DNA of 35,058 bases from Treponema sp. (GTDB lineage: Bacteria > Spirochaetota > Spirochaetia > Treponematales > Breznakiellaceae), in NCBI GenBank assembly GCA_009784775.1, contig WQXQ01000010.1:1-35058 (forward strand), in the 5' to 3' direction. Shown piece by piece: positions 4,517 through 34,200 of this stretch; position 1 is the stretch's first letter, and the number at the start of each line of letters is the position of its first letter. The notes under the pieces were generated by a model. That model saw nothing but the letters and a program-made list of their open reading frames with translations. It had not been told where the DNA came from and did no database searches. The translations under genes were made by a program, and so were the position numbers.

Positions 4517-5998
4517 CTATTGAATCCCCAGCTTCTCCAGCGTTCTTCGGGCCCTGCGAGCAAGGCCTTCGTTTTTGTCTTCGGCAATGACTCTTATTTC
4601 ATCGGCAAGGCCAACAAGGTTATTGTTGGCAGCTATGTCCAGCCCGGTTGATTTTTCCACAACGCCCCTGTCCTGCATCAGCCGGCGGGCAATGGGCTCA
4701 ATGTTGGGGCTTTTAACAGTGCCAATAATTTTAATAAGACCGTTGTACAGGGCGGTCTGTCTTTTTTGCTTTGCCTCATCCAGTTCTTTCACAAAGCTGT
4801 CAAGAAATTTGCCGGGATCAATTTGCATAATCATTTCACCGGCAATAATACGCACACGCTCGCTGTTCTTTCGCTCGGTAAAAAGATCTTCCAGTATTTT
4901 AATGGCATCGCTGTTTGCTATTGCCCCCAGAGCGCGGATGGCATCATCCCGTACAGCGGGAACCTCATCGCGCTCGGCGCGGAATTTCAGGTAAGGTACG
5001 GCAGCGGCAAGTTTTCGCTGGCGGCTTGCCTGAGCAGCTGCAACACGGGTGCGGAAAAATGAATCCCGAAATGCGTCAAGTATTGCCGCGTCAACGGCTT
5101 CGCCGGAAAAAGGTCCCAGAGCGGTAACGGCAGCGGAACGAATATTGGGATCCTTGGCGGAAACACAGGTTAATACCGCATCAAGACCGGACGGATCGCC
5201 GATTTTGGCAAGCGATTCAAGGGCAGATATGCGCAGGGGTATTCGTTCTTCGCTATCAGTGGCAATACCCGCCAAAAATTCCACCGCCTTAACTGAACCA
5301 GTATTACCCAGCGCAATGATCACTTCACGGCGATTACCATCGCCCGGATCACGGTTTTCGTAATAATCAACAAGATACTCCGCAATATCATCGGCGATTT
5401 CGCCTGATCCGCCAACCCGGCCAAGAGCGCGGAAGGCCGCATTCATAAACCGGGGCTCCCCTCTCTCAAGCAGTTCCCGCAGAAAAGAATCCGCATTTCC
5501 GGCCTTGATTTTGCCAAGGTAGTCAATCGCCGCAAGCACTGTTTCATTTGCCTCATCGTCCCGTTCCTCTATGGCGCGAATAGCCCGGTCTGCAAGGTCG
5601 TTTTTTTCTCTCTCGCCAAAAAAAGCAAGAGCTCCGGCAAGTATTTTTTGATTGCGGGTATGCTCTACCAGAGCAATAATTTCCTCGTCAAGGTAGTCGG
5701 CTTCCTCGGTTCTGAGTGTTTGTATAAGGGCGGCAATTTCCGTCTCGGTCCCAAACTTTATGGTATTAAGCTGCACTTCTTCAAGATCAGGCTGGGCAAA
5801 TAACAAAGCAGCAGAAAATAATATAAATCCCAAATACATCACGCAGAGGCGCAGAGGCGCAGAGGACACGGAGGAAGAAAAAAGGCGGAAATCCGCGTTG
5901 TTTTTTAATACGCCGCTCCCCACTTTTCTTAATCTCTGCGTTCTCTGCGTCCCTGCGTCTCCGCGAGAAAAAAAACCGAATAAATTCTTTTTTTTCAT
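4517..5998 (-). CDS. Exported HEAT-repeat protein carrying an in-frame repeat element
   Basis: A 493-residue protein made mostly of HEAT/PBS-lyase-like repeats (recurring AIRALG, AALGPFSG and ALGRVGG helices with family-typical AL-x-x-LG spacing), suggesting an alpha-solenoid scaffold. A hydrophobic segment YLGFILFSAALLFAQ at residues 55-69 looks like a signal-peptide core with cleavage near AQ, so a periplasmic location is likely. About residues 10-53 are encoded by a repeat element (5841-5968) that separates the charged start MKKKN from this core. The ATG at 5998 overlaps the tgt stop as ATGA, the arrangement expected of the native coupled start, so translation probably still begins there; the alternative is the ATG at 5839. 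No catalytic motif is seen; function unknown. Confidence 0.8.
   Translation of the reverse strand: MKKKNLFGFFSRGDAGTQRTQRLRKVGSGVLKNNADFRLFSSSVSSAPLRLCVMYLGFILFSAALLFAQPDLEEVQLNTIKFGTETEIAALIQTLRTEEADYLDEEIIALVEHTRNQKILAGALAFFGEREKNDLADRAIRAIEERDDEANETVLAAIDYLGKIKAGNADSFLRELLERGEPRFMNAAFRALGRVGGSGEIADDIAEYLVDYYENRDPGDGNRREVIIALGNTGSVKAVEFLAGIATDSEERIPLRISALESLAKIGDPSGLDAVLTCVSAKDPNIRSAAVTALGPFSGEAVDAAILDAFRDSFFRTRVAAAQASRQRKLAAAVPYLKFRAERDEVPAVRDDAIRALGAIANSDAIKILEDLFTERKNSERVRIIAGEMIMQIDPGKFLDSFVKELDEAKQKRQTALYNGLIKIIGTVKSPNIEPIARRLMQDRGVVEKSTGLDIAANNNLVGLADEIRVIAEDKNEGLARRARRTLEKLGIQ
5841..5968. repeat. In-frame palindromic repeat element, family 1, copy A
   Basis: Iterated CGCAGAGG units on the left and their complement (CTCTGCG, CCTGCG) on the right form imperfect inverted arms around a core at 5893-5930. 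The same element recurs at 19010-19140 inside ribD; the 38-bp cores differ at only 4 positions. On the host-coding strand it reads without a stop as a peptide with TQRTQR, RKVG.GVL.NNA and SSS..SA landmarks. It lies within the signal-peptide region of the HEAT protein. Confidence 0.85.
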
Positions 5999-12423: not shown

Positions 12424-13275
12424 TTAACAGCTCAGGGAGCGGCCCAAAAGCCGTTCTGCCTCTGCCTTTTGTCCGGCGGCCAATGCCTGCCTGATACGGC
12501 TTGAGCTTACCGGCTGCCCTCCGTCCATAACCGGCGGCGCAACCCAGACTGCTACTCCCCGCGCTTTGGCAAAGCGCCGTATCTCGTCAGCACCGGTATC
12601 CAGCCGCTGCCCACAGCGAAAATCCGGCCCCAGCACAAGCAGTTCTACCGGCTGGCTGCCCAGCAGTAGATCAATAAAATCCCTGCCGTTTATTTTACTG
12701 AATTTTTCAGAAAAGTCAATAAGTATGGTCAATTTCACTCCCAATTCCTGTAAAACAGCAAGTTTTTGTTCCAGCGGAAGAATATCTCCGGTAAAAGCCT
12801 GTGGATTCAGCACCTGGAGAGGGTTTTGGGTGAAAGTCACGACCGTGGGGGTAGGGGGAGAATGAGGTACGCAGTTGCCGAAGGCTTTGAGGAATGAGGA
12901 ATGAGGGGGGGAGGATGGGGACTGGGGACTGGGGGAAGAGGGATGAGGGGACTGGGGACTGGGGACTGGGGACTGGGGTTTGGGGTTTGGGAATTGGGGG
13001 TTGGACAACAAAGGTTGGGGAGAGGTACATATCTTGCGTATCAAGGCTTGGTGGCCTAAATGGACGCCGTCGAAGACACCTACGGTTACGGCTAAGGGAC
13101 TAGGGACTAGGGATTGGGGACTGGGGGTATTAGTCTGTAAGCACAACGGGTTACCAACACGCTTGGATTGCGGACAACTATCCCTAGTCCCTAGTCCCCG
13201 AGGCCTTCGGCAACTGCGTACCCCAGTCCCTTTAATGTATTCTTCCCAGCTAATTATGTGCATAGACATAGCCAT
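12424..13275 (-). CDS. ribF: RibF-like FAD synthetase domain with two in-frame repeat insertions and no riboflavin-kinase domain
   Basis: Normal RibF is about 300 residues: an N-terminal FMN adenylyltransferase (FAD synthetase) and a C-terminal riboflavin kinase. Here the nucleotidyltransferase landmarks are present: GVFDGVHLGHQALI with the HxGH site, and SSSRIRQAL near the end. The protein stops right after the GRSL segment, where the kinase domain would begin, and only 46 nt separate it from rpsO. The 283-residue length is kept up by two insertions: about residues 16-60 (before AVTVGVFDG) and 87-138 (between IRKICTS and TVVTFTQNPL), both encoded by GGGACTG-type repeats. Candidate starts are 13275, 13269 and 13263; all overlap the truB stop, implying coupling. 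Activity is uncertain. Confidence 0.88.
   Translation of the reverse strand: MAMSMHIISWEEYIKGTGVRSCRRPRGLGTRDSCPQSKRVGNPLCLQTNTPSPQSLVPSPLAVTVGVFDGVHLGHQALIRKICTSPQPLLSNPQFPNPKPQSPVPSPQSPHPSSPSPQSPSSPPHSSFLKAFGNCVPHSPPTPTVVTFTQNPLQVLNPQAFTGDILPLEQKLAVLQELGVKLTILIDFSEKFSKINGRDFIDLLLGSQPVELLVLGPDFRCGQRLDTGADEIRRFAKARGVAVWVAPPVMDGGQPVSSSRIRQALAAGQKAEAERLLGRSLSC
12862..13016. repeat. In-frame heptamer-repeat element, family 2, copy in mid ribF
   Basis: A G-rich tract of tandem 7-mers, mainly GGGACTG and GGAATGA variants, plus degenerate GGGTTTG units. It encodes a Pro/Ser/Gln-rich stretch (PSPQSP units) in ribF. It lacks the conserved core of the other two copies but carries GGTACGCAGTTGCCGAAGGC at 12866-12885, which occurs inverted in the neighbouring copy. 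Confidence 0.8.
13096..13230. repeat. In-frame heptamer-repeat element, family 2, copy at ribF N-terminus
   Basis: Plus-strand GGGACTA/GGGACTG 7-mers on the left and CCCTAGT 7-mers on the right flank a core at 13128-13187. The core is 52/60 identical to 13501-13560 in truB. The right end carries the 20-mer GCCTTCGGCAACTGCGTACC (13203-13222), the inverted match of 12866-12885. It reads through in the ribF frame. Confidence 0.85.
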
Positions 13276-14227
13276 ATTTCCATTTGTTATTTGAATACTC
13301 TATTATAGCAATAAAGGTATCGCCAGAGAAAAGAGCGGTGGCGGCGTTTGCCCCGGACGGAGGGGTGTTGCCCACAATTGGGCCCAAAGACTTGCCATGA
13401 AAGACATTTGTGGCATCTTGTGGGCTGATTTCAAGGCAGGGAATACCCAGTTTTTCAAAGACAGATTTGTTTATGGGGACTGGGGACTGGGGACTGGGGA
13501 TATTAGTCTGCAAGTGCAATGGGTTGCCAACACGCTCAGATTGCGAACAACTATCCCTAGTCCCTAGTCCCCAGTCCCCAGTCCCCTCTTCCTCATTCCT
13601 CATTTCTAATTCCTCATTAACTGAAAACTCTGCCACTCTCATGCGCAATAAACGAACCAAATGTGCCCGGCTGCTGGCTGCGAGCGCTATGTCCCGCGCC
13701 AGTGAGCGGATGTAGGTGCCGCTGGAGCAGTGGACGAATATTTGGGCAAAGGGCGGTTCCCAGGACAGGAGTTCCAGGCGGTAAATGGTTATGGGGCGTT
13801 TTTGCATCTCGGGGGTCTCGCCGCGGCGGGCCAGCGTTGAGGCGCGTTCGCCGTCAATGTGAATGGCGGAATAGGCTGGAGGGGCCTGCTCAATGGCACC
13901 GCGGAATTGGGAAAGGGCTTGTTCCACTGCCTCGCGGGAAGGCAGGGGGGCGCTGGCAATAACGGCACCTTCGGGATCAAGGGTTTCGGTTTCGGTGCCA
14001 AAACAAATGGTGCCTTCGTATTGTTTGTCGCAGTGGGTAAACCAGCGGCTCAGTTTGAGCGCCTTGCCGGTGAGTACCAGCAACAGGCCTTCGGCAAATT
14101 TGTCCAGGGTGCCGGTGTGGCCAGCCTTGCCGGTACCCAGCGCGCGTTTAATGTCGCGTAACGAGTCAAAGGAAGTAATGCCCGGCGGTTTGTGCAAAAG
14201 AATTAAGCCAGAGGGAGCGGGTTTCAT
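13250..14227 (-). CDS. truB: tRNA pseudouridine-55 synthase with an in-frame repeat insertion
   Basis: TruB converts U55 of tRNAs to pseudouridine. From the ATG at 14227 the protein has 325 residues: SGLILLHKPPGITSFDSLRDI, then AGHTGTLDKFAEGLLLVL with the catalytic Asp at residue 42, PPAYSAIHIDGERA, and SSGTYIRSLARDIA. About residues 204-252 come from a heptamer-repeat element inserted after VAEFSVNEE, between the catalytic domain and the short C-terminal part; without it the enzyme would be about 276 residues, near normal. The frame is open further upstream into the DUF4143 gene, but family N-termini fit 14227, 7 nt past that gene's stop. It overlaps ribF. The usual upstream neighbour rbfA is absent here. 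Confidence 0.95.
   Translation of the reverse strand: MKPAPSGLILLHKPPGITSFDSLRDIKRALGTGKAGHTGTLDKFAEGLLLVLTGKALKLSRWFTHCDKQYEGTICFGTETETLDPEGAVIASAPLPSREAVEQALSQFRGAIEQAPPAYSAIHIDGERASTLARRGETPEMQKRPITIYRLELLSWEPPFAQIFVHCSSGTYIRSLARDIALAASSRAHLVRLLRMRVAEFSVNEELEMRNEEEGTGDWGLGTRDSCSQSERVGNPLHLQTNIPSPQSPVPINKSVFEKLGIPCLEISPQDATNVFHGKSLGPIVGNTPPSGANAATALFSGDTFIAIIEYSNNKWKYGYVYAHN
13474..13619. repeat. In-frame heptamer-repeat element, family 2, copy in truB
   Basis: Three GGGACTG units (13475-13499), a 60-bp core (13501-13560), then CCCTAGT and CCCCAGT units and finally CCTCATT 7-mers. The flanking 7-mers are mutually inverted, so the element can fold into a long hairpin. In the truB frame the core reads GTRDSCSQSERVGNPL; the ribF copy reads nearly the same. 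Confidence 0.87.
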
Positions 14228-14234
14228 GTTGGTA

Positions 14235-15578
14235 TCAAGCCTCTCCCATGATATTACCAATTGCATATAACGGATAAATGGCGATATCACCGGATTGTCC
14301 AAAGTTTTCAAGGGATGTCCGTATACCATTTTGAATATTTTTTTCTTTCATAAAAAGCCGGAGACTTTGCATACTGCCCTGGGTTCCCGATTTAACTTCT
14401 ATGGGAATAATGCGGCTGCCCCTTTGCACAAGAAAATCAACTTGAGCGTTGCCATGCGAAGAATGGGGATTAGCCGAACGCTGCCAGCAGAATAACTCCT
14501 GGGGTTTATAACAGGAAGCATTTTTTAATAATTCCAGACCGGTAAAAATTTCCGCCAGAGAACCGCGATTAACAGCAGAAAAATCGGAAACGGGTAAAAT
14601 TTCCGAACGGAGGCCGAGAATCTGGAGGAAGATGCCGGTATCGCAGGGAATTATCCGCCGGAATTTTATATTCTTTTCTGCGCCAAGAGGAATACCGTTG
14701 GCGGCAGTATGCGTTACCGAATGAACCAACCCTGCCATGACAAGAAGATCGAGCGCTTGCCTTACCGCTGCGGTTGGAGTTCCCGGAACAGCGCGTTCAT
14801 AGACAAATTTTCCTTCGGTTTGATGCATAACCGATTCAAACACTTCATTAATGAGTAATAATGGCGCTTTTTTTTGGTATTTGGCAAAATCTGTTTTAAG
14901 TACCGTTATAAGGTCGTTCAAAACAAGTTCACCATAGAGCAAATCGCTTTTGCGCACATATTGAGAAACCGCTTCGGGCATTCCGCCGCAAATCATAAAA
15001 AATTTCAGCCTTATCAAAAGCTGTTGATGAATAGGCTCGGCAAGCGGTTTTTCGGGAGATGCTTCCTTAATAGCTTCACCAAGCGATTCCTCATTCATAG
15101 CAGTCAGAAATTCATTAAAAGAAAAAGGATACATAAAGACAGACCGAATACGCCCCACGCCAAATGTTGGTATCTCTTCAAGTGCGAATTCCAAAAGAGA
15201 ACCGGCAGCAACTACATGAAGCTCGGCATATTTTTCATAAAAAAACCTGAGCTTTTCCAACGCTGCGGGACAGCTTTGAATCTCATCAAAAAAAAGCAGT
15301 GTTTCCCCGGGAATTATGGGCACATGGTAATAAAGCGAAAGCTGCTCACAAATTTTCTGAGGAGACAAAGAAGTGTCAAAAAAGCTTTTTACCTCTTTGT
15401 TTTCATCAAAGTTTATCTCGATAAAGTACTTAAACTGTTTCCCTAATTGCCTTAGAGCGGAGGATTTACCGACCTGCCTTGCCCCGCGTAAAAGCAACGG
15501 TTTCCTGTCAGGCGGCCTTTCCCGGCTCCATTCAAAGAGCGTTTTATCGACATTTCGCTTGAAATAGTGATCTTCCAT
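14235..15578 (-). CDS. AAA-family ATPase with DUF4143 domain (first of two)
   Basis: A 447-residue member of the free-standing AAA_14/DUF4143 family. The Walker A motif is GARQVGKSS (32-40, Lys39) and Walker B is LLFFDEIQ (about 94-101). FMYPFSFNEFL follows the ATPase core, and the C-terminal DUF4143 part ends with VDFLVQRGSRIIPIEVKSG, which resembles a PD-(D/E)xK nuclease-fold motif. The family is common and often multi-copy in gut bacteria and archaea; its function is not established. Start at 15578 lacks a ribosome site and lies 13 nt past a putative -10. It sits directly before truB, where rbfA often lies, so it may be an insertion into the conserved cluster. A second member is at 22443-23687. 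Confidence 0.88.
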   Translation of the reverse strand: MEDHYFKRNVDKTLFEWSRERPPDRKPLLLRGARQVGKSSALRQLGKQFKYFIEINFDENKEVKSFFDTSLSPQKICEQLSLYYHVPIIPGETLLFFDEIQSCPAALEKLRFFYEKYAELHVVAAGSLLEFALEEIPTFGVGRIRSVFMYPFSFNEFLTAMNEESLGEAIKEASPEKPLAEPIHQQLLIRLKFFMICGGMPEAVSQYVRKSDLLYGELVLNDLITVLKTDFAKYQKKAPLLLINEVFESVMHQTEGKFVYERAVPGTPTAAVRQALDLLVMAGLVHSVTHTAANGIPLGAEKNIKFRRIIPCDTGIFLQILGLRSEILPVSDFSAVNRGSLAEIFTGLELLKNASCYKPQELFCWQRSANPHSSHGNAQVDFLVQRGSRIIPIEVKSGTQGSMQSLRLFMKEKNIQNGIRTSLENFGQSGDIAIYPLYAIGNIMGEA

Positions 15579-18728: not shown

Positions 18729-19972
18729 TACAGACTCCTTGCCTCAAACATTATCTGAGAACCAATGCGGCGAAAAACACCGTTTTTGAATCGCAGAACC
18801 TGATCCATAGAATCAATACCCAAGCCAGAAACAGCGTTAAGGCCGCCGCCCAGCATTATCGGAGCAATGATAATCGAAAGCCGATCCCAAAGGCCCTCCC
18901 GCAAAAAGGAAGCAAAGATCCCCGCCCCCCCTTCAACAAGTATGGACTGTATACCCCTTTCCCCCAACGCTGCTAACACTTCCTGGAGGGGTAAAGCTTG
19001 AGAAGAACTCTCGCAGAGGCGCGGGGACGCAGAGAACGCAGAGGAAGAGGGAAGGTAGATAGCCGCGTTATTTCTTAATACGCCGCCACCCACTTTTCTT
19101 CCCCTTTGCGTTCTCTGCGCCTCTGCGCCTTGGCGTGAAATAATCGGAATGAGCTCTACGCCGAGGGAGTGGAGGTTGGCTGCTTTGCGGGGGTTGGCGT
19201 TGTGGCTGTGGACGATGATGGTTTTTTCCGGGTCTGGTAAAGAAAACAGTTTTGCGGTCTCAGGAATGGCGAGACGGGAATCGAGGATAACGCGGCGGGG
19301 GTTGCGGCCTTTTACCAGCCTGACTGTCAGCTCGGGATCATCGGCAAGCGCGGTGCCCCGGCCAATTAACACGGCGTCATACTCGCTGCGAAGGCGATGC
19401 ACCATACGCCGCGCCGCTTCGTCGCTGATCCAGCGGGCGCTGCCGTTAGGCGCAGCAATCCTGCCATCCAGGGTTTGAGCCATTTTAAGGTGGACAAAGG
19501 GGCGCCCCGCACGGTGAAAGGTAAAAAAAGCGCGGTTCAGTTCTTCTCCCGCTTCAGCGCAAAGCCCGGACACCACTGTGATGCCCGCCTTTTCAAGTAT
19601 GGTTATGCCTTTTCCGCTCACCCTGGGATTGGGATCGAGGTTTGCGATGTACACTCTTTTGATTTTGTTTTTGATGATGAGTGTTGTGCAGGGGGGCTGA
19701 TGCTTGCCCGGCGCGTCAAAGCAGCAGGGTTCAAGGGTGCAGTACAAATCAGCGCCGGCGGGGGAAAGCCCTGCCGCCAGGGCCGCCTGTACCGCTTCTG
19801 CCTCGGCGTGGAGGCCGCCATAATAGCGATGCCAGCCTTCGCCAATGATGCGGCCTTTTTTGACCAGCACTGCGCCCACCATTGGGTTGGGGGCGGTTTT
19901 TCCCATGCCCCGCCCGGCAAGGGCAAAGGCCCGCTTCATGTATGTACTGTTGACTGTATTTGATACTTCCAT
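18728..19972 (-). CDS. ribD: Bifunctional pyrimidine deaminase/reductase with an in-frame repeat insertion
   Basis: RibD deaminates and then reduces the pyrimidine intermediate of riboflavin synthesis. The N-terminal deaminase shows APNPMVGAVLV, the zinc site HAEAEAV and EPCC...PPC; the reductase half shows the FVHLKMAQTLDGRIA start, RWISDEAAR, DAVLIGRGTALADDPELTVR and ILVEGGAGIFASFL. About residues 278-320 are encoded by the family-1 repeat element (19010-19140), placed between VELIPII and LPLQEVLAALGERG in a likely surface loop. Start 19972 is chosen because the ATG at 19984 lies within the conserved 3' strand of the FMN riboswitch. First gene of the rib operon. Confidence 0.96.
   Translation of the reverse strand: MEVSNTVNSTYMKRAFALAGRGMGKTAPNPMVGAVLVKKGRIIGEGWHRYYGGLHAEAEAVQAALAAGLSPAGADLYCTLEPCCFDAPGKHQPPCTTLIIKNKIKRVYIANLDPNPRVSGKGITILEKAGITVVSGLCAEAGEELNRAFFTFHRAGRPFVHLKMAQTLDGRIAAPNGSARWISDEAARRMVHRLRSEYDAVLIGRGTALADDPELTVRLVKGRNPRRVILDSRLAIPETAKLFSLPDPEKTIIVHSHNANPRKAANLHSLGVELIPIISRQGAEAQRTQRGRKVGGGVLRNNAAIYLPSSSAFSASPRLCESSSQALPLQEVLAALGERGIQSILVEGGAGIFASFLREGLWDRLSIIIAPIMLGGGLNAVSGLGIDSMDQVLRFKNGVFRRIGSQIMFEARSL
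19010..19140. repeat. In-frame palindromic repeat element, family 1, copy B
   Basis: Left arm of CGCAGAGG-type units and a right arm of their complements (about 30 bp each, imperfect) surround a core at 19063-19100 matching 5893-5930 with 4 differences in 38. It is in the same orientation and reading frame relative to its host gene (ribD) as copy A in the HEAT gene. Confidence 0.88.
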
Positions 19973-23687: not shown

Positions 23688-23693
23688 ATCCTT

Positions 23694-23722
23694 AGTATAT
23701 CATATTTAGTCGAATTTGTAAA
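23694..23722 (-). promoter_or_regulatory. Predicted promoter of second DUF4143 gene
   Basis: Minus-strand TTTACA (23717-23722), 17-nt spacer and TATACT (23694-23699). The -35 belongs to the first 23-bp tandem repeat unit. RNA would start on or next to the A of the ATG at 23687. Confidence 0.6.
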
Positions 23723-23792
23723 GTAGAAATAGTCGAATTTGTAAAGTAGAAATAGTCGAATTTGTAAAGTAGAAATAGTCGAATTTGTAAAA
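23707..23792. repeat. 23-bp tandem repeat, nearly four units
   Basis: Three identical 23-bp units (23707-23729, 23730-23752, 23753-23775), each starting TAGTCGAATTTGTAAAG, are followed by a partial fourth unit to about 23792. There are no spacers. Each unit supplies a minus-strand TTTACA hexamer. Confidence 0.95.
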
Positions 23793-23800
23793 TACGCGTA

Positions 23801-23833
23801 AAAAAAGGCGGTCCCATACGGAACCGCCTTTTG
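23801..23833 (-). terminator. Rho-independent terminator of the beta-helix operon
   Basis: On the minus strand AAAAGGCGGTTCC, a short loop and GGGACCGCC are followed by a run of seven T. The stem is 8-9 bp, GC-rich, with one bulge. It lies about 20 nt after the stop of the last beta-helix gene and separates it from the DUF4143 gene. Confidence 0.9.
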
Positions 23834-23852: not shown

Positions 23853-26800
23853 TTATGGATTATTCGCTACCAGCCTTCCAATATCCACGCCGGAGTCGGC
23901 TATCCGGTATGTGGGGCTTATTGGCTGGGTGTTGTCGGAGGTTGACAGAAACATCCCTAACGACAGTATCTTTGCCACATCACCAGTGGTAAGAGTGTAA
24001 CCGGAAGCTGCTTTCAATACTTCTTCACCTTCCCAGCTGGCAATAACACTATTTATATCTGCGGTACCTCTTCGCAGGTTAAGCGTACCAATATTACCTG
24101 TCCAGCCTGCATTGATAGTTACTGATGGATAATAAGGACTCATAAAATTCAATACAACATCATCAACAATGGCATTGCCGGATACAATAAATGTACCGAT
24201 TAGACCCTCCATACTAGAAGCAACAAATACTCCGTCAGCGTAAGAAGTAGCAGTATTGCCGGTAATACTTCCTCCCAACATAATAAAATGACAGCCATTC
24301 TCTACACGTACACCGCTTGCGATGTTAGTAGTATTTCCGGTAATTTTTGATCCGTTAAGCATAGTCAGTCTGGCACCGTTTTGCAATCTAACCACTGATG
24401 AAGCGTCGCTATTGCCGCTGCGCCCCACCAGGGTAATATTGTCCCCAAGAGTCAGCGAAGCAGTACTATGCGAAACATTAAACATTATTCCATTGGAATC
24501 CAGATTGATACTCCGCTCCCTGCCAGTACCAACAAGAGTGATGTGCATATTGACTGCGTCGATTGTCCACGGCGCAAGGGACTGGTCTCCACTTATCGTA
24601 ACCGTATAGTCTCCGGCGATGATGATTGCGCCTAATGCGGCAGTCAGTGTGGGATAAGCTGTTTCCGCGCCGCCATTCCTGCTAACCATGACTGGGGGAA
24701 TGACCAGTCTTCCAATATCCGCGCCAGAGTTGGCAATATGGTACGTGGAACTTATGGCCTGGGTGGCGCTGTCGGCTGCTGAGGTAATAAAGTTACCCAG
24801 GGTAACTTTTGCTACATCGGCGGCAGTAAGGGTGTAGTCGGCAGCGGCGCGTAGTACTATTATGTTTTCCCAATAGCTAATGGTTGTTACCATATTCGTA
24901 TTGTTACCATACAGGTTAAGCGTGCCAATATGCCCGTCCCAGTCGGAAGCAATGGTTAGCGAGGCATTTGAAGTTGCATTCGCAACTAAGGTAATGGTCC
25001 CAATTTCCGCATCTCCGGATACCGTAAAAGAGGCAACAGTTTGCGTTACAAACACATCATTATTCACACCGGTATTTCCAGTAATACTGCCCCCTTCAAT
25101 GATCGCAGAAGCACCGGGAGCCGCTACATATAAACCGCCTGTGATAGAACTATTTCCGGTAGTTGGCGCGCTGTTCCCGGTGATTGCTCCGCCCCTCATG
25201 ATAAAAGCAGAGTTAGTAGCTATAGAAACTGCATTAAATGTGCCGGCGGCAGTACCAGTAGATGTATTTCCGGTAACTTTTGAATCATCAAGCATGGTAA
25301 AACTGGCGCCGTTATCCACATATACCACACAGTTATTGTTATTCTGGTTACCATTACCGCCCACACTGCGTCCTACCAGAGTAATATTGTTCCCAAGAGT
25401 CAGTGAAACATTACTGCCCGAAACATAAAACATTCTCCCATTGGAGGACAGATTGATCTTTCGTTCCTCACTATTTCCAATAAGGGTGATGTGTACACCA
25501 GTTGTGTTGATTGTCCACGGCGCAAGGGACTGGTCTTCACTTATCGTAACCGTATAGTTACCGGCGGTGGTAATGGCGTTTAGTGCGGCAGCCAGTGTGG
25601 GATAAGCTGTTTCCGCGCCGCCATTCCTGTTGACCATGGCTGGGGGAAGAAGAGGCAGCGGGAATACTGCGGTAATTATGCCTGAGCCGGCGGCATTTGT
25701 TACCGATTCTGCATTTGTAACCGTGAAGAAGTTTGCTGCGACACCCTCCACGGTGAAACCGTTTATCGCCGTCAGTGTAATGGTGGCGGTGTACGGTATT
25801 CCCGCTTCAAAAACAGGATCATTGGGCTCCCATGTGACCGTTCCGGTATATTGGTTTGTTTCGTTGATAAGCGTTACCGGAGCAAATCCTACCACTGGAA
25901 CGGGTATACCTCGTATTGCGGCAATATTAATGTGGATCATCCCAAAATTAACCGCACCCGGTGCGCCCGGCCAGGCTCTTTTGTTTCCGTAGAAGTCAAA
26001 GATGGGGAAGTTTGCCAGATACGATGCGGGAAGCATCGTTGACAGACCGCTTACCGGCACAAAAGTAGTCGTATTAAACGGAATACCGCTAATGCCCAGT
26101 GCTGAGAATAACCTATCCGTAGGTGCCGCAACCCAACCGGCCTGAGAAGCGGCGGTACCAAACGCTATGTCTACCACATTGTAACCGCTGGCAGCGGCAT
26201 TATACGTTCCGCCATTCATAGCTAACACCCTTGATCTGCCGGCATTGCCACTGGTACTGGTGTTCCCATAGAACAAATTCCCAATCATGGTAACGCTGCC
26301 TCCTGTATTATCAATCGCCCCGCCGCCCCAGCTTCCGGATGAATTATTATAGAAGGTACAACCCCTTACGATCAGGGTTCCAGCGCAAGAAATGGCGCCG
26401 CCTTGTGATCCAGTACCTACAGCCCGGTTGTCGCTGAATATACAGGATTCCAAGGTAAGAGTATTATTACTTCCATTGCGGATTCCTGCGCCATAATCAC
26501 CAAATCTGCCGCCAGCAAAATGTACACCACTAATATGCACATTAATACCGGCAACGGTAGTCATGTCTACCAATCGCAAGTTGTTGATTGTAGGATTACG
26601 GATAGTGACGCCATTACCGCGAATGGTAAGGCTTTTGTTAATGGTTAAGCCGCTGGCAAGATTAATGGTTCCTACGCCGCTATCAATAACAATGGTACTT
26701 CCTGCCAGCACGGTGGGGGAATTTATGGCCTCCCGCAAGCTGCCTGCTCCGGTGTCTGCGTTGCTGGTTACAAAGTACACATTTGGATCAACAAAATTCC

Positions 26801-27521
26801 CATCAATAAATTGATTGTCGGTAAATACGATGGGGTCTACGGTATTGCCGTATTCGGTGGTTAACAAATTATATATGTGCACCACTTCAATTTTGCCGGC
26901 ATCCTTACCGTCTTTGTGCAGATTGATAGTCAGCAGATAAAACCCTGCGGGTATTTCTTCTACCGTGCCGATAAAATCGGCAGAACCGGGAACGCCTAAA
27001 TCGATGCTTGCCGTCAAATCCGGCAGTTTTTCCATGGTAATGACCGCAGCAGTTCCCTCTGGATACTGAATATTGAAACTGAATGTGCCCAGACCGTCCC
27101 CGGCCGGCGCTTCTTCAATAACAATGTCCACATCAACTGTGCCGCCGGAAACAAGCGTAAACGTTCCGGAACCGAATGCCGCCAGCTTGTCAGTATCTAT
27201 TTCACCGGCATACACCGAGACATACACGGTCCAGGGTACACCTGATTCCAGCGTAAACGAGCCATCCGTATTCTGTGGAATAATTTCCAGCGGGCCGCCG
27301 TTGTTGCTAAAACTATAGTCATAGATCAGAATATCCTTGGCAGGGAATATCGTACGGAACGGATCCCCTACCATATTGAAGTTCACTCTTCCATACCCTG
27401 CCTCGACAGGCCGGTCAACTTTGTTCGGCGGATTAAAAATATCCGCACAACCCGCCAATACCAAACAACTCATAACCAATAACAAAGACCATTGTCCTAT
27501 TTTCATTGTTCTTTTTTCCAT
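23853..27521 (-). CDS. Giant beta-helix surface lipoprotein (A)
   Basis: A 1222-residue predicted lipoprotein. The N-terminus has a charged start, a hydrophobic core and lipobox LAGC with Cys25. Residues about 30-245 are beta-rich and unrecognised. VTSNADTGAGSLREAI (251-266) opens a right-handed parallel beta-helix with Asn/Gly/Thr-rich turns and SNNRAVG..GGAI units, ending DFYGN..PGAPGAVNFG near residue 520. A linker module (YTATITLTA.NGF.V.GVA.NFFTV) follows, then two tandem ~300-residue copies of a second beta-helix module, each beginning MV.RNGGAETAYPTL and ending in an IADSG.DIGRLV-like motif. AAGGAG overlaps the stop region of gene B and supports the start. The role is unknown; such proteins are adhesins or carbohydrate-binding surface proteins elsewhere. 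No enzyme active site was recognised. Confidence 0.88.
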   Translation of the reverse strand: MEKRTMKIGQWSLLLVMSCLVLAGCADIFNPPNKVDRPVEAGYGRVNFNMVGDPFRTIFPAKDILIYDYSFSNNGGPLEIIPQNTDGSFTLESGVPWTVYVSVYAGEIDTDKLAAFGSGTFTLVSGGTVDVDIVIEEAPAGDGLGTFSFNIQYPEGTAAVITMEKLPDLTASIDLGVPGSADFIGTVEEIPAGFYLLTINLHKDGKDAGKIEVVHIYNLLTTEYGNTVDPIVFTDNQFIDGNFVDPNVYFVTSNADTGAGSLREAINSPTVLAGSTIVIDSGVGTINLASGLTINKSLTIRGNGVTIRNPTINNLRLVDMTTVAGINVHISGVHFAGGRFGDYGAGIRNGSNNTLTLESCIFSDNRAVGTGSQGGAISCAGTLIVRGCTFYNNSSGSWGGGAIDNTGGSVTMIGNLFYGNTSTSGNAGRSRVLAMNGGTYNAAASGYNVVDIAFGTAASQAGWVAAPTDRLFSALGISGIPFNTTTFVPVSGLSTMLPASYLANFPIFDFYGNKRAWPGAPGAVNFGMIHINIAAIRGIPVPVVGFAPVTLINETNQYTGTVTWEPNDPVFEAGIPYTATITLTAINGFTVEGVAANFFTVTNAESVTNAAGSGIITAVFPLPLLPPAMVNRNGGAETAYPTLAAALNAITTAGNYTVTISEDQSLAPWTINTTGVHITLIGNSEERKINLSSNGRMFYVSGSNVSLTLGNNITLVGRSVGGNGNQNNNNCVVYVDNGASFTMLDDSKVTGNTSTGTAAGTFNAVSIATNSAFIMRGGAITGNSAPTTGNSSITGGLYVAAPGASAIIEGGSITGNTGVNNDVFVTQTVASFTVSGDAEIGTITLVANATSNASLTIASDWDGHIGTLNLYGNNTNMVTTISYWENIIVLRAAADYTLTAADVAKVTLGNFITSAADSATQAISSTYHIANSGADIGRLVIPPVMVSRNGGAETAYPTLTAALGAIIIAGDYTVTISGDQSLAPWTIDAVNMHITLVGTGRERSINLDSNGIMFNVSHSTASLTLGDNITLVGRSGNSDASSVVRLQNGARLTMLNGSKITGNTTNIASGVRVENGCHFIMLGGSITGNTATSYADGVFVASSMEGLIGTFIVSGNAIVDDVVLNFMSPYYPSVTINAGWTGNIGTLNLRRGTADINSVIASWEGEEVLKAASGYTLTTGDVAKILSLGMFLSTSDNTQPISPTYRIADSGVDIGRLVANNP
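25661..26780. repeat. Duplicated block shared with gene B (copy 1)
   Basis: About 1.1 kb of gene A matches 28784-29895 in gene B closely; long runs are nearly base-identical, for example around 26190-26370 against 29310-29500. It covers the first beta-helix and the linker module. Confidence 0.85.
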
Positions 27522-27531
27522 TGTTCACTCC

Positions 27532-30500
27532 TTAATTGGTAACCGTAACGGTAAAGTTCATGTTGTAATACCTGCCGTCTTTGAAAACCAGCAAGCCAAT
27601 ATCATAATCCCCATTTGCCCTTCCAAAGCTGGAGAAAACAAAGGTTTCTCCGGTCTGACCGGTATTCACACCGTTAAGGTACCATATCTGGCCGGTATAG
27701 CCAGGGCCAATGGCGTCAATGATCAACGATTGTCCGATGCTTCTGGACAGCGTACTCGAGCTAATGGCCGCAATTTCCCCGTCACCCTGTTCATTGACCC
27801 AGTAATAGGCAAATTGCGCCGCAGGCGGGATCGGAATGAGTATCAGTCTCCCAATATCCATGCCGGAGTCGGCGATCAGGTGTGTATCATTGATGGCCTG
27901 GGTGTTGCTGCTGGTTGCTGAGGACATAAAGTTACCCAGAGTGAACTGTGCCACATCGTCAGCGGTAAGCGTGTAGCCGGCAGCGGCGCGCAGTACCGGC
28001 TGGTCTTCCCAGGCGCTAATGACATCAGCTATGGCGGTGACTGCCCTGCGCAGGTGCAGACTGGCAACACTGCCGGTCAACGGTCCGGCAATGGTTACGG
28101 CGTTTCTGGTAGTTGCGCCGCTTGCGAATAACTTAAGCGCGCCCACTGTCGCGCTGCCGGACATGGTGAATCTATCAGCGACCGTGATTATCACATACAC
28201 GTCCGCCGGAATGGTGTTGTGGGTATTGCCGGTAATACTTCCCCCGCTCATGGTAATATAACCATCGTTCAGGCTTACGCCGCCGTTGGCCGCCGTACCG
28301 GTAGCCGCGGCAGTGGTACTGTTTCCGCTGATTTCGCCGCCTTCCATAATCAAACGAGCATTCAGTCCATTTACATAGATTGCGCCATTGGCGCTGCTGG
28401 TGGTATGCCGGGTAATTCTTGAACCTGTCTGCATAATCAGCCTGCCGTTGGTAATGTTTATCAGACTAGTGCTGCTGGCACTGGTTAAGCCCCTCAGGGT
28501 GATGTCATTCCCCAGGGTCAGGCTGGTATTGGTATTGCTAATGGTAAACATTATCTGACCAGCAGTACCGCTATGAGTGATCATCCGCTCTCCGTCTTCG
28601 CCGACAAAGGTAATATGCACATCGGCGGTATTGATTGTCCGCGGCGCAAGGAGCTGATCTTCTTTTACGGTAACCATATAGCTTCCGGCTGCGGTAATCG
28701 CGTCGAGCGCGGCAGTTAATGTTTCATACCCTGTTACCGCACCGCCATCTCTGCTCACCATGACTGTAGGAATAAAAGCCGCCGGGAACACTGCGGTAAT
28801 GATGCCTGAGTTAGCGGCATTCGCTGCGGATTCTGCATTGGCAACCGTAAAGAAGTTTTCCGCAACACCCAACACGGTGAAACCGTCTTTCGCCGTCAGT
28901 GTAATGGTGGCGGTGTACGGTATTCCCGCTTCAAAAACAGTATGATCGGGATTCCATGTGACCGCTCCGGTATATTGGTCTGTTTCGTTGATAAGCGTTA
29001 TCGGAGCAAATCCTACCACTGGAACGGTTATACCTTGTATTGCGGCAATGTCAATGGTATCGGGGGTATCATCAAAATTAACTGCGCCTGGCGCACCCGG
29101 CCAGATTCTGTCGTTTCCGTAGAAGTCTGTGTCCGGGAAGTTTGCCAACGGAGACCCAGGCAGCATATTGATAGCATTATTAAACGGCACGAAGGTAGCA
29201 GTCCTGAACGGAATACCGCTAATGCCCAGCGCTGAGAACAACCTGTCTGTAGATGCTGCAACCCAGCCGGCCTGAGCAGCGGCGGTACCAAACGCTATGT
29301 CTACCACATTGTAGCCGCTGCCGCTGGCATTATACGTTCCGCCATTCATAGCTAACACCCTTGATCTGCCGGCGGTGGTACTGGTACTGGTATTCCCATA
29401 GAATAGATTCCCCAGCATGGTAACGCTGCCTCCTGTATTATCAATCGCCCCGCCGCCCCAGGATCCGGATGAATTATTATAGAAGGTACAACCCCTTACG
29501 ATCAGGGTTCCAGCACACGAAATGGCGCCGCCCTGCGAAGAGCCGCTTGTAGCGATATTGTTACTGAATATACAGGATTCCAGAAGCAGGGTTGAGCCAT
29601 TTGCATTGTTGATTGCGGCGCCATAATCACTTACTCTGCCGCCGGTAAAATGCACATCACTAATGTGTACAGTAACAAGATCATTATTAACGGTGCGAGT
29701 TATCTGCAGCAATCGTACGGCAGTGGTGGCTATCGTTACACCATTACCGCGAATGGTAAGGCTTTTATTAATGGCTAAGCCGCTGGTAAGATTAATGGTT
29801 CCCACGCCGTCTTCAATAACAATAGTGCCCCCTGACGCCGCATCGGCTATGGCCTGCCGCAAGCTGCCTGCTCCGGAGTTTGCGTTGCTGGTTACATACA
29901 AAGGACAAACACAGGGATTTTCTCTGCAATCCAGACATTTGCCATCATTATAGGAGAAGGATATGTTATTGATGCTGCTGTTATATACTTCTATATGTCC
30001 AAGGTATGCTTCGTCGTATTCCCCTAATATTGTTTCGAATTCCAGATAGAAGTACAGATACATCGGCGTATGTAAAGGCACAATCGGCACTTGCCATGCA
30101 CCGGTATCAACATCCATTGCCCAGGCACCTGCATAATCACCATTGTCCAGATATACATGTATATTGGCATAATCGAAGGGGTCCAGTATTACAAGATCGA
30201 CCACACCGCTCAAGGTGATCGAGCCGCCGCCATGAATGGTTTGACCAAAGGTAAAGTGAATATTATCAATGTCATAATCATGTACCACCCACGTGCCAAG
30301 GAATCCCTCGTCTTCTTCCCCGGATACTGTTCGTACATAAATACCGAATTGCAGGAGCGTTGGCGTATTAAAAGTACTGACATACGTCTGCCATGCACCG
30401 GTGGCAATATTAATACTTGCAGAACCAACCCAAGAATTTTCCAGGAAAATACCTATTCCCGCTAATTCCAAAGGGACTCCTATATTCGCAAGATTGACGG

Positions 30501-31221
30501 TACCGCCCAGGAATATCTTTTCGACATCGCCCACGATATCATATTCGGTAAATACAAAATCGCCGACGGTTGGCATATTTGAGTAAATGTGGACCACTTC
30601 GCTTTTGGTTTTGGGTTTGCCCTCATCAGGATACACATAAACGGTCACAAAATAGTAACCCGGCAAAAGATACAGTCTGTCTTGATTACTATTATATACG
30701 TCGAAGTAACCACCATAACCATTCGAAAAGCCATAGATTTCCAGATATGCATAATTAATCAGGTCATGAGGAAAACTTACGGTATAATCGAAAAAGCCGT
30801 CATCAGCGCCAAAAGGTTCTGTTGCTTCCAGTATAATGGTCAGACCCTGAAAACTGCTGGAATTAACATTAATTTCATTATACCCTTCCGCCAGCGGCTC
30901 ATCGTAAATAAATCCGGTGACATGAATGCCCCACAATCCGTTTACCAGATCGTCAATGAGCACCGATGTTTGGCCCTCATCCAGGATTTCATCGTCACGC
31001 TCCTGCGAACCCTGACCCAGCCACACAAACTGTATTTCAAAACGATCAAAGGTCGGGGTGGGCAGCAGTGTCCTTTGGGCAAGGCCGCCCAGATCAATGA
31101 GCAAGCCCCTTTGCTGCGGCGCGGCCGCGCTTTTCACATCGGCGTTAAATACGCCCTGACAAGCGGCCATCAGTACTATGCTTACGGCGATTATCGCGCT
31201 GTATGTTATTAATTTTTTCAT
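27532..31221 (-). CDS. Giant beta-helix surface lipoprotein (B)
   Basis: About 1229 residues with a lipoprotein signal: MKKLITYSAI, a hydrophobic core and lipobox LMAAC (Cys21). Two ATGs are adjacent (31224 and 31221); AAAGGAGGAG is better spaced for 31221. Residues to about 425 contain two similar beta-rich modules (FLGGTVNLANIGVPLEL and SGVVDLVILDPFDYANI regions), then a small cysteine cluster CLDCRENPCVC, and VTSNANSGAGSLRQAI opening the beta-helix shared with gene A. One copy of the second beta-helix module follows (MVSRDGGAVTGYETL to IADSGMDIGRLI). The last ~100 residues form a separate Ig/PKD-like domain with WYLNGVNTGQTGETF, resembling the end of gene C. Only 11 nt separate it from gene A. 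Confidence 0.87.
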   Translation of the reverse strand: MKKLITYSAIIAVSIVLMAACQGVFNADVKSAAAPQQRGLLIDLGGLAQRTLLPTPTFDRFEIQFVWLGQGSQERDDEILDEGQTSVLIDDLVNGLWGIHVTGFIYDEPLAEGYNEINVNSSSFQGLTIILEATEPFGADDGFFDYTVSFPHDLINYAYLEIYGFSNGYGGYFDVYNSNQDRLYLLPGYYFVTVYVYPDEGKPKTKSEVVHIYSNMPTVGDFVFTEYDIVGDVEKIFLGGTVNLANIGVPLELAGIGIFLENSWVGSASINIATGAWQTYVSTFNTPTLLQFGIYVRTVSGEEDEGFLGTWVVHDYDIDNIHFTFGQTIHGGGSITLSGVVDLVILDPFDYANIHVYLDNGDYAGAWAMDVDTGAWQVPIVPLHTPMYLYFYLEFETILGEYDEAYLGHIEVYNSSINNISFSYNDGKCLDCRENPCVCPLYVTSNANSGAGSLRQAIADAASGGTIVIEDGVGTINLTSGLAINKSLTIRGNGVTIATTAVRLLQITRTVNNDLVTVHISDVHFTGGRVSDYGAAINNANGSTLLLESCIFSNNIATSGSSQGGAISCAGTLIVRGCTFYNNSSGSWGGGAIDNTGGSVTMLGNLFYGNTSTSTTAGRSRVLAMNGGTYNASGSGYNVVDIAFGTAAAQAGWVAASTDRLFSALGISGIPFRTATFVPFNNAINMLPGSPLANFPDTDFYGNDRIWPGAPGAVNFDDTPDTIDIAAIQGITVPVVGFAPITLINETDQYTGAVTWNPDHTVFEAGIPYTATITLTAKDGFTVLGVAENFFTVANAESAANAANSGIITAVFPAAFIPTVMVSRDGGAVTGYETLTAALDAITAAGSYMVTVKEDQLLAPRTINTADVHITFVGEDGERMITHSGTAGQIMFTISNTNTSLTLGNDITLRGLTSASSTSLINITNGRLIMQTGSRITRHTTSSANGAIYVNGLNARLIMEGGEISGNSTTAAATGTAANGGVSLNDGYITMSGGSITGNTHNTIPADVYVIITVADRFTMSGSATVGALKLFASGATTRNAVTIAGPLTGSVASLHLRRAVTAIADVISAWEDQPVLRAAAGYTLTADDVAQFTLGNFMSSATSSNTQAINDTHLIADSGMDIGRLILIPIPPAAQFAYYWVNEQGDGEIAAISSSTLSRSIGQSLIIDAIGPGYTGQIWYLNGVNTGQTGETFVFSSFGRANGDYDIGLLVFKDGRYYNMNFTVTVTN
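28784..29895. repeat. Duplicated block shared with gene A (copy 2)
   Basis: Partner of 25661-26780. Differences are scattered substitutions plus a few codon-length gaps, with reading frame kept, as expected for paralogous segments kept similar by duplication or conversion. Confidence 0.85.
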
Positions 31222-31224
31222 CAT

Positions 31225-31236
31225 GCTCCTCCTTTA
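31225..31236 (-). promoter_or_regulatory. Strong ribosome-binding site of beta-helix gene B
   Basis: AAAGGAGGAGC on the minus strand partly overlaps the stop of gene C and stands 6 nt before the ATG at 31221, but only 3 nt before that at 31224. This favours the second ATG and implies coupled translation in the operon. Confidence 0.7.
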
Positions 31237-34200
31237 CCGCACAACCATGAAGGTCAATTCTTTGGAATAGGGTATGTCGCCCTTCCAGCAGACAATGGTC
31301 AGGGTGTACCTGTCATATACATATGATTCGGGCACTCCCATCGCATACACCAGAAAATAGTATATATCCCCAGCGGAAATACTAAAGGAATTATCTTCAT
31401 CTCCATACAGATACATTCCGTCTATCCGCCATTCGAAATAATCAAAATCGCCATCTACGGTTATTTCAAGCGTATTATTGTTAAACACTGAAATAACGCT
31501 GCTGCTTTGGCTAATATCGATACGTTCATCGTGGGTCTGGAACCGTATATAAATGGTATTCGATTCGGGCGAAAGCGTTGTGCCTACCGCGCCCGGAGCG
31601 CCCGGCCATTCATTCCGTGTATTGCCGTAGAAATCAACCGCGGGGAAACCGCTCCCCACAACGGCCTGCGGCATTATACGCGTTGCGTATGCCGGCCTAA
31701 AGTTACTGGTATTAAAGGGATTGCCGTCAATGCCCAAGGCCTCAAAGGTGGTGTCTGTTGAATGTGCATACCAGCCGCATTCATCACTGTCGGATCCAAA
31801 ATGCACGTCAGTCACATTATAGCCGGTGGACGTAATCTGCGTACCGCCTTCATTCCATATAATGGGATATCCATAACCAGTATCGGTATTGCCATAAAAC
31901 AGATTGCCGGTAAGGGTTATAGATCCATTGTAGGTACCAATTGCTCCGGCCTGAGCAGCGCTGTTTGCGTAGAAGGTACAGCCCCTTAGAATTAAGTCAC
32001 CCATTTCATTCCAAATGGCGCCGCCTGCATCATCCACGATATTATCGCTGAAGATACAGGATTCCAGAGTGAGTGCTCCGCCATCATTCATGATGGCTGC
32101 TCCCCAGTCATCGGACCTGCCGCCTTTGAAGTGGACACCGCTGATTGTTACAGCAGCACCCTCTATATACATCATCCGGAAAGCATTATTTGCCGTAATG
32201 GTAATGCCGTTTCCTTCGATGGTGATACCGACACGAATATCAGGCAATGCATTCTGCAATGTAATGGTTGAAACACCCGGTTGTACTCCCACAAACCTGA
32301 CAATATCATCTTGCCGGGCATTTTCAAGCGCGCGGCGCAATGTGCCGGACTGATTTCCATCCTGAAAACTGGTAACAAGGAGGACATCGCCGCCGACTTT
32401 CACCATAAATACAGCCTCTATATACGTATGCTGGTTTATCGTAAAGGTATACGGATTGTTGGTAACCTGATTCCCGTTTACCAGCCAATGCGAGAACGAC
32501 ATATTCGCCCGCGCCGGAGTTGCCGTAAGGGTAATGGAGCCGGTATACAGTCCGTCTATATTGGAAACAGCGGAACTCTGTACGCTGCCGCCGAATGCAT
32601 CGTAGTCAACGACAAGCATAAAGCCGCTTGCCATTGTCTGCACCGCACCGGCAGCAGGGTTGAATCTTGATATGGAGCTGCCGTAGAAATCCACTGTGGG
32701 ATAATCAAACATACTGGGTATTTCATTAACTATATTGTCCGCTCCGCCGCCGTTAATCGGCCGGAATGTCGTTACAGAGATGACAGGAATGACAGGATCG
32801 TCAATATAGACATCACCATCTTCCTCGTACCAGCCGCAGTCCCAGTAATAATCTCCAAAGGGTGCATCAACCACATTCCAGCCATAAGAGTCTATACTTG
32901 CTCCCGTAGCCACCGGATAGTAATTGGCGGTATTTTCATAGAAGATATTACCGGCCAGCGCAAAATAGCCGTTGCCGCCAATGGCGCCGCCGGCATTGGC
33001 GCTATTCCCGTAGAAGGTACAGCCAACCACCACCGTACTACCGGCAAGATTAACAATAGCGCCGCCGGTGGTATTGGCGGTGTTGCCGCTGAAAATACAG
33101 GATTCCAGGATCAGCTGTCCGCCAATCATGTTTAGAATCGCACCGCCGGCAGCCGCATGGCCGTCTTTGAAGTGCACACGTTTGATATGGACCTGATTAT
33201 TGCCATATACCCGTAACAGCGATGAGGTAATATCCACTGTATTCCACGAAGCATTGCGGGTTAAGGTAACGCCGTTGCCGTTAATGGTCAAAGGCTTATT
33301 AATCGGCGGCAGCGCTGAGGACAGCCGAATGACACTAACTCCCGGCGTTGCGGTAATATTGATAATGTCGTCATCTTCCGCCCGTGTCAGCGCATGGCGT
33401 AAAGAACCGGCTATATGAGCGCTGTTTGCGTTATCGTTCAGGTTACTGACGATATGCGTCACGCTGAATACGGCCTGTACGCGGGTATGCGCGGTTATGG
33501 TAAAGGTATAGGGGCTGTTGGTTACATCGGTCCCGTTCACCACCCAACGCGCGAATGTCGCATTCGCCGCCGGAGCTGCCGTGAGGGTAACCGAGCCGGA
33601 ATACAACGCATCTGCGTTCGCAGCGCCGGAAATGGTTACGCCGCCCCGTTCGGCATTGTAGACCAACTCAAGCACATAACCACTGCCGCTGGCGATTTCC
33701 TGCACCGCGCCGGCAGAAGCGCCGGGAGTTGTCATGGCATTACCGTAAAAGTCTTCTACGGGATAGAAACCAAGTGATTCCGTTATAATACCTTCCGCTC
33801 CGGCGCCGGAAAGCAAGCGGAATGTTGCGGGAGAGAAGGTCAGTTCGTCAATAGAGACATCACCAATACCTGCATCCCAGCCGCACTCATCGTAACCCCA
33901 TCCAAAGTCTACATCAACCACGTTAAAGCCATAGCCATATATAGTATCCCCTATGTATACCACCGGGTATCCATTCTGGGCGTTATTCCCGTAAAAAATA
34001 TTGCCCACTATGGAAATGCCGCCCATACCAAGGTAGATCGCGCCGCCGTTACCGGACGCGCTGTTATCGTAGAAGGTACAACCATATACCTCAAGATGTC
34101 CCCCGTTTGCATTAATGGCGCCGCCATTACCCAGTGTGGCTCTGTTGTCGCTGAAAATACAGGACCTTACGATCAGGTCTGAGCCCTGGGCATTAATTGC

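Follow-up and report, generated by a model that had tools for sequence, protein, structure and literature searches.

Heptamer-armed repeats read in frame within ribF and truB of a Treponema species and their link to S23 genes

The window, by which is meant the whole stretch of 35,058 nucleotides that was analysed, is one contig (WQXQ01000010.1) of a Treponema sp. assembly (GCA_009784775.1) of 2.4 Mb in 153 contigs that is 92.7% complete. The repeat blocks described here are located in two of its genes, ribF and truB, the 3' end of truB overlapping the start of ribF:

12424-13275, minus strand: ribF (FAD synthetase domain), 283 aa, with two blocks in frame; FAD_syn match at E 3e-31
13250-14329, minus strand: truB (tRNA pseudouridine synthase), 359 aa, with one element in frame
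12862-13016: composite block without a core, located in ribF downstream of the GVFDGVHLGH motif; read through on the minus strand
13096-13198: full element in the ribF N-terminal linker; left arm 13096-13125, core about 13126-13180, right arm 13181-13198
13199-13230: outer module GAGGCCTTCGGCAACTGCGTACCCCAGTCCC, present in other copies too and inverted at 12860-12900
13474-13586: full element in the truB C-terminal loop; left arm 13474-13499, core about 13501-13553, right arm 13554-13586
13587-13619: second heptamer-like type (TTCCTCA, TTTCTAA) adjoining the truB element

The blocks were found where the sequence-only reading had placed them (12862-13016, 13096-13230 and 13474-13619), and its statement that all are read through by the host gene was borne out, as the ORFs of ribF and truB are open across them on the minus strand. 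TruB_N was matched at E 4e-48 with model positions 1-149 of 149 covered. The sequence GGGACTRGGGACT occurs 11 times in the window, always inside 12918-13585, against 0.00 expected from shuffles. The description of the blocks as three copies of one element had to be abandoned: block 12862-13016 has neither the core nor the AGTCCCC right arm, being a mosaic of a GTACGCAGTTGCCGAAGGC module with GGAATGA, GGGGACT and GGGGTTT arrays, and only two full elements are present. These consist of inverted GGGACT(G/A) arrays flanking a quasi-palindromic core of about 53 nt. The limits given for them were too wide, since the elements proper stop at 13198 and 13586 and the later bases are additional module or array sequence. 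A shared core was correctly recognised, but its proposed length of 60 bp was too short, as the identity between the two core copies is 89% and extends over 97 nt.

The two core copies have, as had been claimed, the same orientation and frame, and their peptides RDSCPQSKRVGNPLCLQTNTPSPQ and RDSCSQSERVGNPLHLQTNIPSPQ are closely similar. The shared frame of the arms alone carries little weight because a heptad array gives one repeating peptide in all three frames; the frame is constrained only by the core and the A-type units. With an arm, a core and an inverted arm, the RNA or single-stranded DNA can fold into a long hairpin, and folding of the element RNAs gave such a hairpin with z scores of -3.0 and -6.4. 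Rfam matches to animal microRNA models were discarded as sub-threshold and of low complexity.

Several other features of the window were recorded. The RibF at 12424-13275 is the FAD synthetase half only, and the RibF ORFs of relatives are similarly short, so that the riboflavin kinase may be encoded elsewhere. At the start of rpsO, 12321-12438 matches the ribosomal S15 leader with 23.1 bits, which falls short of the cut-off of 39.5. Tandem 23-bp units (TTTGTAAAGTAGAAATAGTCGAA) at 23692-23806 adjoin a large secreted-protein gene, and the three large genes at 23853-35019 are paralogues of about 1220-1260 aa that contain internal repeated blocks and by their look encode secreted, beta-helix-like proteins.

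The genome-wide search for the core that had been proposed as a check was performed with the 13096 element as query and returned 71 matches in its own assembly at E <= 0.001. An iterated profile search over the stretches around matches yielded 46 places after merging, of which 40 had sufficient length for measurement, and GGGACTRGGGACTRGGG was counted 294 times as an exact match in the assembly (reversed control, 0); these genome-wide figures are based on pattern counts and on the stretches around matches. The standard copy, of about 117 bp in total, has about five GGGACT(G/A) heptads, a core of the GTTGTTCGnnATCTnAGCGTGTTGGCAACCCGCTnTGCTTnCAAACAAC type and about five inverted heptads. Of the 40 copies, 36 have a left arm of 4-5 heptads and 32 a right arm of this size, and the commonest core length is 53 nt. 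Array lengths differ among copies, and some have double or different cores. An assembly artefact is unlikely, given copies on many contigs with differing flanks and cores and related, non-identical copies in other genomes. The window blocks thus belong to a dispersed family, and small selfish elements are the best reading of what the family probably is.

The copies have terminal inverted repeats, and in this and in their short length they resemble MITEs. A conventional transposase encoded elsewhere might therefore move them, as in MITEs or REP/RAYT systems. Among the copies read, none has these arms around a transposase gene, and no match to a reverse transcriptase (RVT_1) that could act as partner was detected in the assembly; on the copies read, we consider movement by such an enzyme improbable.

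In-frame location within ORFs was found for 16 of 42 full-length copies, the other 26 lying elsewhere. A copy was counted as in-gene where long coding stretches occur on both sides, and the ribF 13096 copy just missed the cut-off of 40 upstream codons. The hosts include PriA, ValS, LeuS, Lon, threonine synthase (ThrC), an RNase II/R-family protein and a radical SAM protein, and standard copies translate as GTGDWGLGTRDxC...PSPQSPVPSP or close to it. Placement inside the coding regions of conserved enzymes thus stands for ribF and truB, but not its description as unusual: as so many other conserved enzymes have in-frame copies, these two genes are no special case in this genome. No open frame in any of six was found in 15 of the 26 copies outside ORFs. 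Open copies in genes and closed copies elsewhere are what selection against disruptive insertions predicts, and this contrast is partly built into the way in which in-gene copies were recognised.

A similar distribution is known for the Rickettsia and Wolbachia palindromic elements (RPE; Ogata 2000, 2002, 2005; reviewed in PMC2229807), which are palindromic, of about 105-146 bp, and both intergenic and in frame within conserved protein genes. Like them, the present family consists of palindromes in the range of 100-150 bp located in frame in conserved protein genes and in intergenic DNA. The likeness is one of size, palindromic form and placement, and PMC2229807 does not describe RPEs as tandem heptads or as tied to S23.

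The related genomes, one of which belongs to the same order and is a single contig of 1.1 Mb, appear Treponema-like. Relatives were compared at both insertion points. In TruB the element occupies a loop of variable length; other repeat-like peptides, e.g. HTEAQRHKEHGG and SHGGAEAQRHGE, are seen in this loop in relatives (loci L173 and L185). In the RibF N-terminal linker, other species of the genus (loci L166, L167, L169 and L171) carry heptamer-like arrays of differing sequence, which are CCCTACT-type in G009, CTCTTAC in G016 and CAACT-type in G001. That the same RibF and TruB positions carry inserts in several species could indicate domestication, with the peptides kept for a service to the host protein or its mRNA. 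As relatives hold differently built sequence at these positions, and as copies outside such ORFs are commoner (26/42), this is very improbable indeed.

LeuS contains three inserts: a short array, an S23 element and a core element. It nevertheless scores 1076 bits against the bacterial LeuS model, and its alignment to the solved T. thermophilus LeuS breaks at the insert sites. In nine LeuS proteins of the same genus the first two inserts are absent, and the third site is occupied by no more than a short stretch that varies. No second TruB was detected in the assembly, other matches to the TruB query being to the inserted stretch and its edges only. The concern that intact RibF and TruB come from another locus, leaving these as pseudogenes, is weakened by the strong host domain matches and by the score of the triply interrupted LeuS, and the host proteins probably work with the insert in place. 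A clean target-site duplication could not be defined from the TruB and LeuS relatives, nor a base-exact empty site, because the insertion loops vary too much between them.

The S23 element in leuS contains the only match to the S23/four-helix-bundle family (PF05635) detected in the assembly. The gene is on the same strand as leuS and is flanked by inverted GGGACT arrays, at distances of 19 and 27 nt from the S23 match, and leuS is open through it in the +2 frame. The window copies have no S23 ORF; they have GGGACT arms in common with this leuS copy of the same genome. The S23 insert was absent from nine same-genus leuS genes and present in one. In genome G022 an S23 gene lies in the same leuS loop, with arms that are mostly of another heptamer than the dispersed GGGAGT arrays of that genome, so that between the two assemblies the S23 gene is conserved and the arms differ. 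The S23 gene of G009 has GGGGAGT arms and is carried in frame within an acyl-CoA dehydratase activase of 1628 aa. Counts of GGGACTR versus GGGAGTR were 294 versus 37 in the assembly studied and 7 versus 58 in G009; in both, the commoner dispersed heptamer is that of the arms of the genome's own S23 gene.

These observations can be read with S23 as a passenger, the heptad hairpins being an independent repeat family into which S23 genes insert or on which they ride. Consistent with this, most copies are without S23, the leuS S23 gene is conserved where its arms differ, and genome G027 (assembly 67% complete) has many GGGACT arrays and no S23 match. The generality of the association between S23 genes and heptads bears on this reading.

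For this, 42 Spirochaetota S23 loci were chosen by profile score, disregarding repeats, and the controls used were distance, period and swapped flanks. Period-7 arrays numbered 38 within 250 bp of S23 (at 17 of the 42 loci), compared with 6 at distances above 500 bp, where 3.7 times more DNA was covered; periods other than 7 were rare. Inverted flanks (left against reverse-complemented right, score >= 36) were detected at 19 of 41 Spirochaetota loci and at 0 of 34 when tested at 1 kb, and over 71 S23 loci at 40, against 3 after flanks were swapped between loci. S23 genes were present in 28 of 30 genomes picked for (GGGGACT)4, compared to 72 of 393 Spirochaetota genomes. The former set was chosen by repeat content, and its figure is inflated by the many cyanobacteria in it, in which S23 genes are frequent. 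Exact (GGGGACT)4 occurs also outside cyanobacteria, and of the 30 genomes the 14 from other phyla include 12 that were S23-positive; several of the (GGGGACT)4 genomes have GGGACT arms around a separate S23 gene. All four plasmid S23 loci (Cyanobacteria, Alphaproteobacteria, Bacteroidota) have inverted arms as judged by eye, and one of the four is a classical 23S rRNA intervening sequence. The S23 copy in the Azospirillum 23S rRNA has GACGGAT/GACAGAG arms. Many S23 loci have only degenerate arms or units of 8 to 9 bases. No S23 relative was confirmed on viral contigs.

A second inverted-repeat family, with CGCAGAGG-type arms of period 8-9, was noted in the window at 5827-5968 and 19009-19150, where it is read in frame within a HEAT-repeat ORF and within ribD. 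It is possibly an octamer-armed sibling, because 8-base arms occur at some S23 genes.

The link between S23 and heptads is well supported by these data. As it spans phyla and many unrelated heptamers, the classical 23S rRNA site included, a passenger S23 would require a separate hairpin family in each lineage awaiting it, and we regard this as unlikely. The arrays could also arise and grow in place by polymerase slippage, favoured by 7-nt units, with no mobile element involved. Array length does vary between copies, and PMC4679880, a paper on Beggiatoaceae with no S23 in its text, reports slippage as a proposal for the abundance of heptanucleotide repeats. Slippage leaves unexplained a non-repetitive core shared at dozens of loci, the inverted arrangement, the clustering near S23 genes and the relatives without leuS inserts, and as the sole cause it is very unlikely; it may even so adjust arm length.

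Gene-within-gene arrangements are not confined to leuS. S23 genes with +2-frame read-through were also found within MmeI-type, histidine kinase, DNA methylase and acyl-CoA dehydratase activase genes. In the MmeI-type host the methyltransferase, target-recognition and C-terminal domains are all matched, with S23 preceding the last. Among 101 S23 genes only 9 have an open +2 frame, and these are mostly the ones inside other ORFs, which fits dual coding kept by selection.

We consider that the window blocks are short, non-autonomous kin of selfish elements of the S23 type, retained at places where read-through does no harm, and that S23 promotes their movement, with a probability of about three in four. 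The short copies would be MITE-like relatives of a longer element with the S23 gene between the same inverted arms. The S23 protein would recognise the heptad arms and promote copying or insertion of the element, and copies landing in genes would persist only where length and frame permit read-through in a loose loop. The window copies share their ends with an S23 element; S23 is not a known transposase and has no known catalytic motif, and it resembles Avd of DGRs. The crystal structures matched by S23 are 2gsc (E 7e-29) and 2rld (E 1e-6), both of which contain five chains, and the S23 protein of X. campestris is described as a homopentamer (PMC4990558). One heptad might be contacted per subunit, a guess from this pentamer and the roughly five heptads per arm, whose agreement is as yet a numerical coincidence. 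A point against a role for S23 is that PMC4990558 argues that the Coxiella protein is not made in vivo. A wider reading, to which we would give somewhat worse than even odds, is that bacterial tandem heptanucleotide arrays are largely the ends or remains of S23 elements, with the pentamer binding about five heptads per arm and the elements living as genes within protein genes through a +2 read-through peptide.

The nearest known system is the 23S rRNA intervening sequence with an S23 ORF, known from Coxiella, Leptospira and Brucella (PMC4990558), where likewise an S23 gene flanked by inverted repeats interrupts an essential gene that remains functional. For Coxiella, GACAGAT heptamers in tandem were reported upstream of S23 without being generalised (PMC4990558). 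The window copies differ as they have no S23 ORF and lie in protein genes, and as the open read-through frames suggest that the insert is translated and not cut from the RNA. The likeness to the STRRs of cyanobacteria suggested by the sequence-only reading was upheld: the window blocks are tandem heptanucleotides such as CCCCAGT, and GGGGACT is a published unit of Nostoc PCC 7120 (PMC4692102). Two Xanthomonas genomes were reported to have 70 and 75 inverted heptamer pairs (PMC4692102), and X. campestris has the solved S23 protein 2gsc. These G-rich heptamers share the GGGGACT unit and the inverted pairs with the present family, but are described as simple repeats of G4 potential, with no mobile-element association, core or S23 link (PMC4692102, in the text of which neither 'four helix' nor XCC0516 occurs). 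In the Nostoc tRNA-Leu intron, complementary 7-nt repeats form the P6b stem and their origin is stated as not known (PMC4476775); these are confined to one intron, and the likeness is one of description. No paper linking S23 genes to heptad arrays was found in the open literature searched, and priority for the link is unproven.

The genome-wide family, the other in-frame hosts, the inverted-arm layout around a conserved core and the S23 partner gene had all been missed by the sequence-only reading. There is no agreed origin for the heptanucleotide repeats described in cyanobacteria, Xanthomonas and others, and no known means of spread for the S23 intervening sequences, which have been called selfish. 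The S23 genes with 7-base arms in several phyla suggest an origin for these puzzling repeats, and joining the two gives both a direct test, namely arm binding and arm movement. Some of the elements encode two proteins in overlapping frames, and the family would be a further case, beside Rickettsia and Wolbachia, of selfish DNA tolerated as an extra peptide in essential enzymes.
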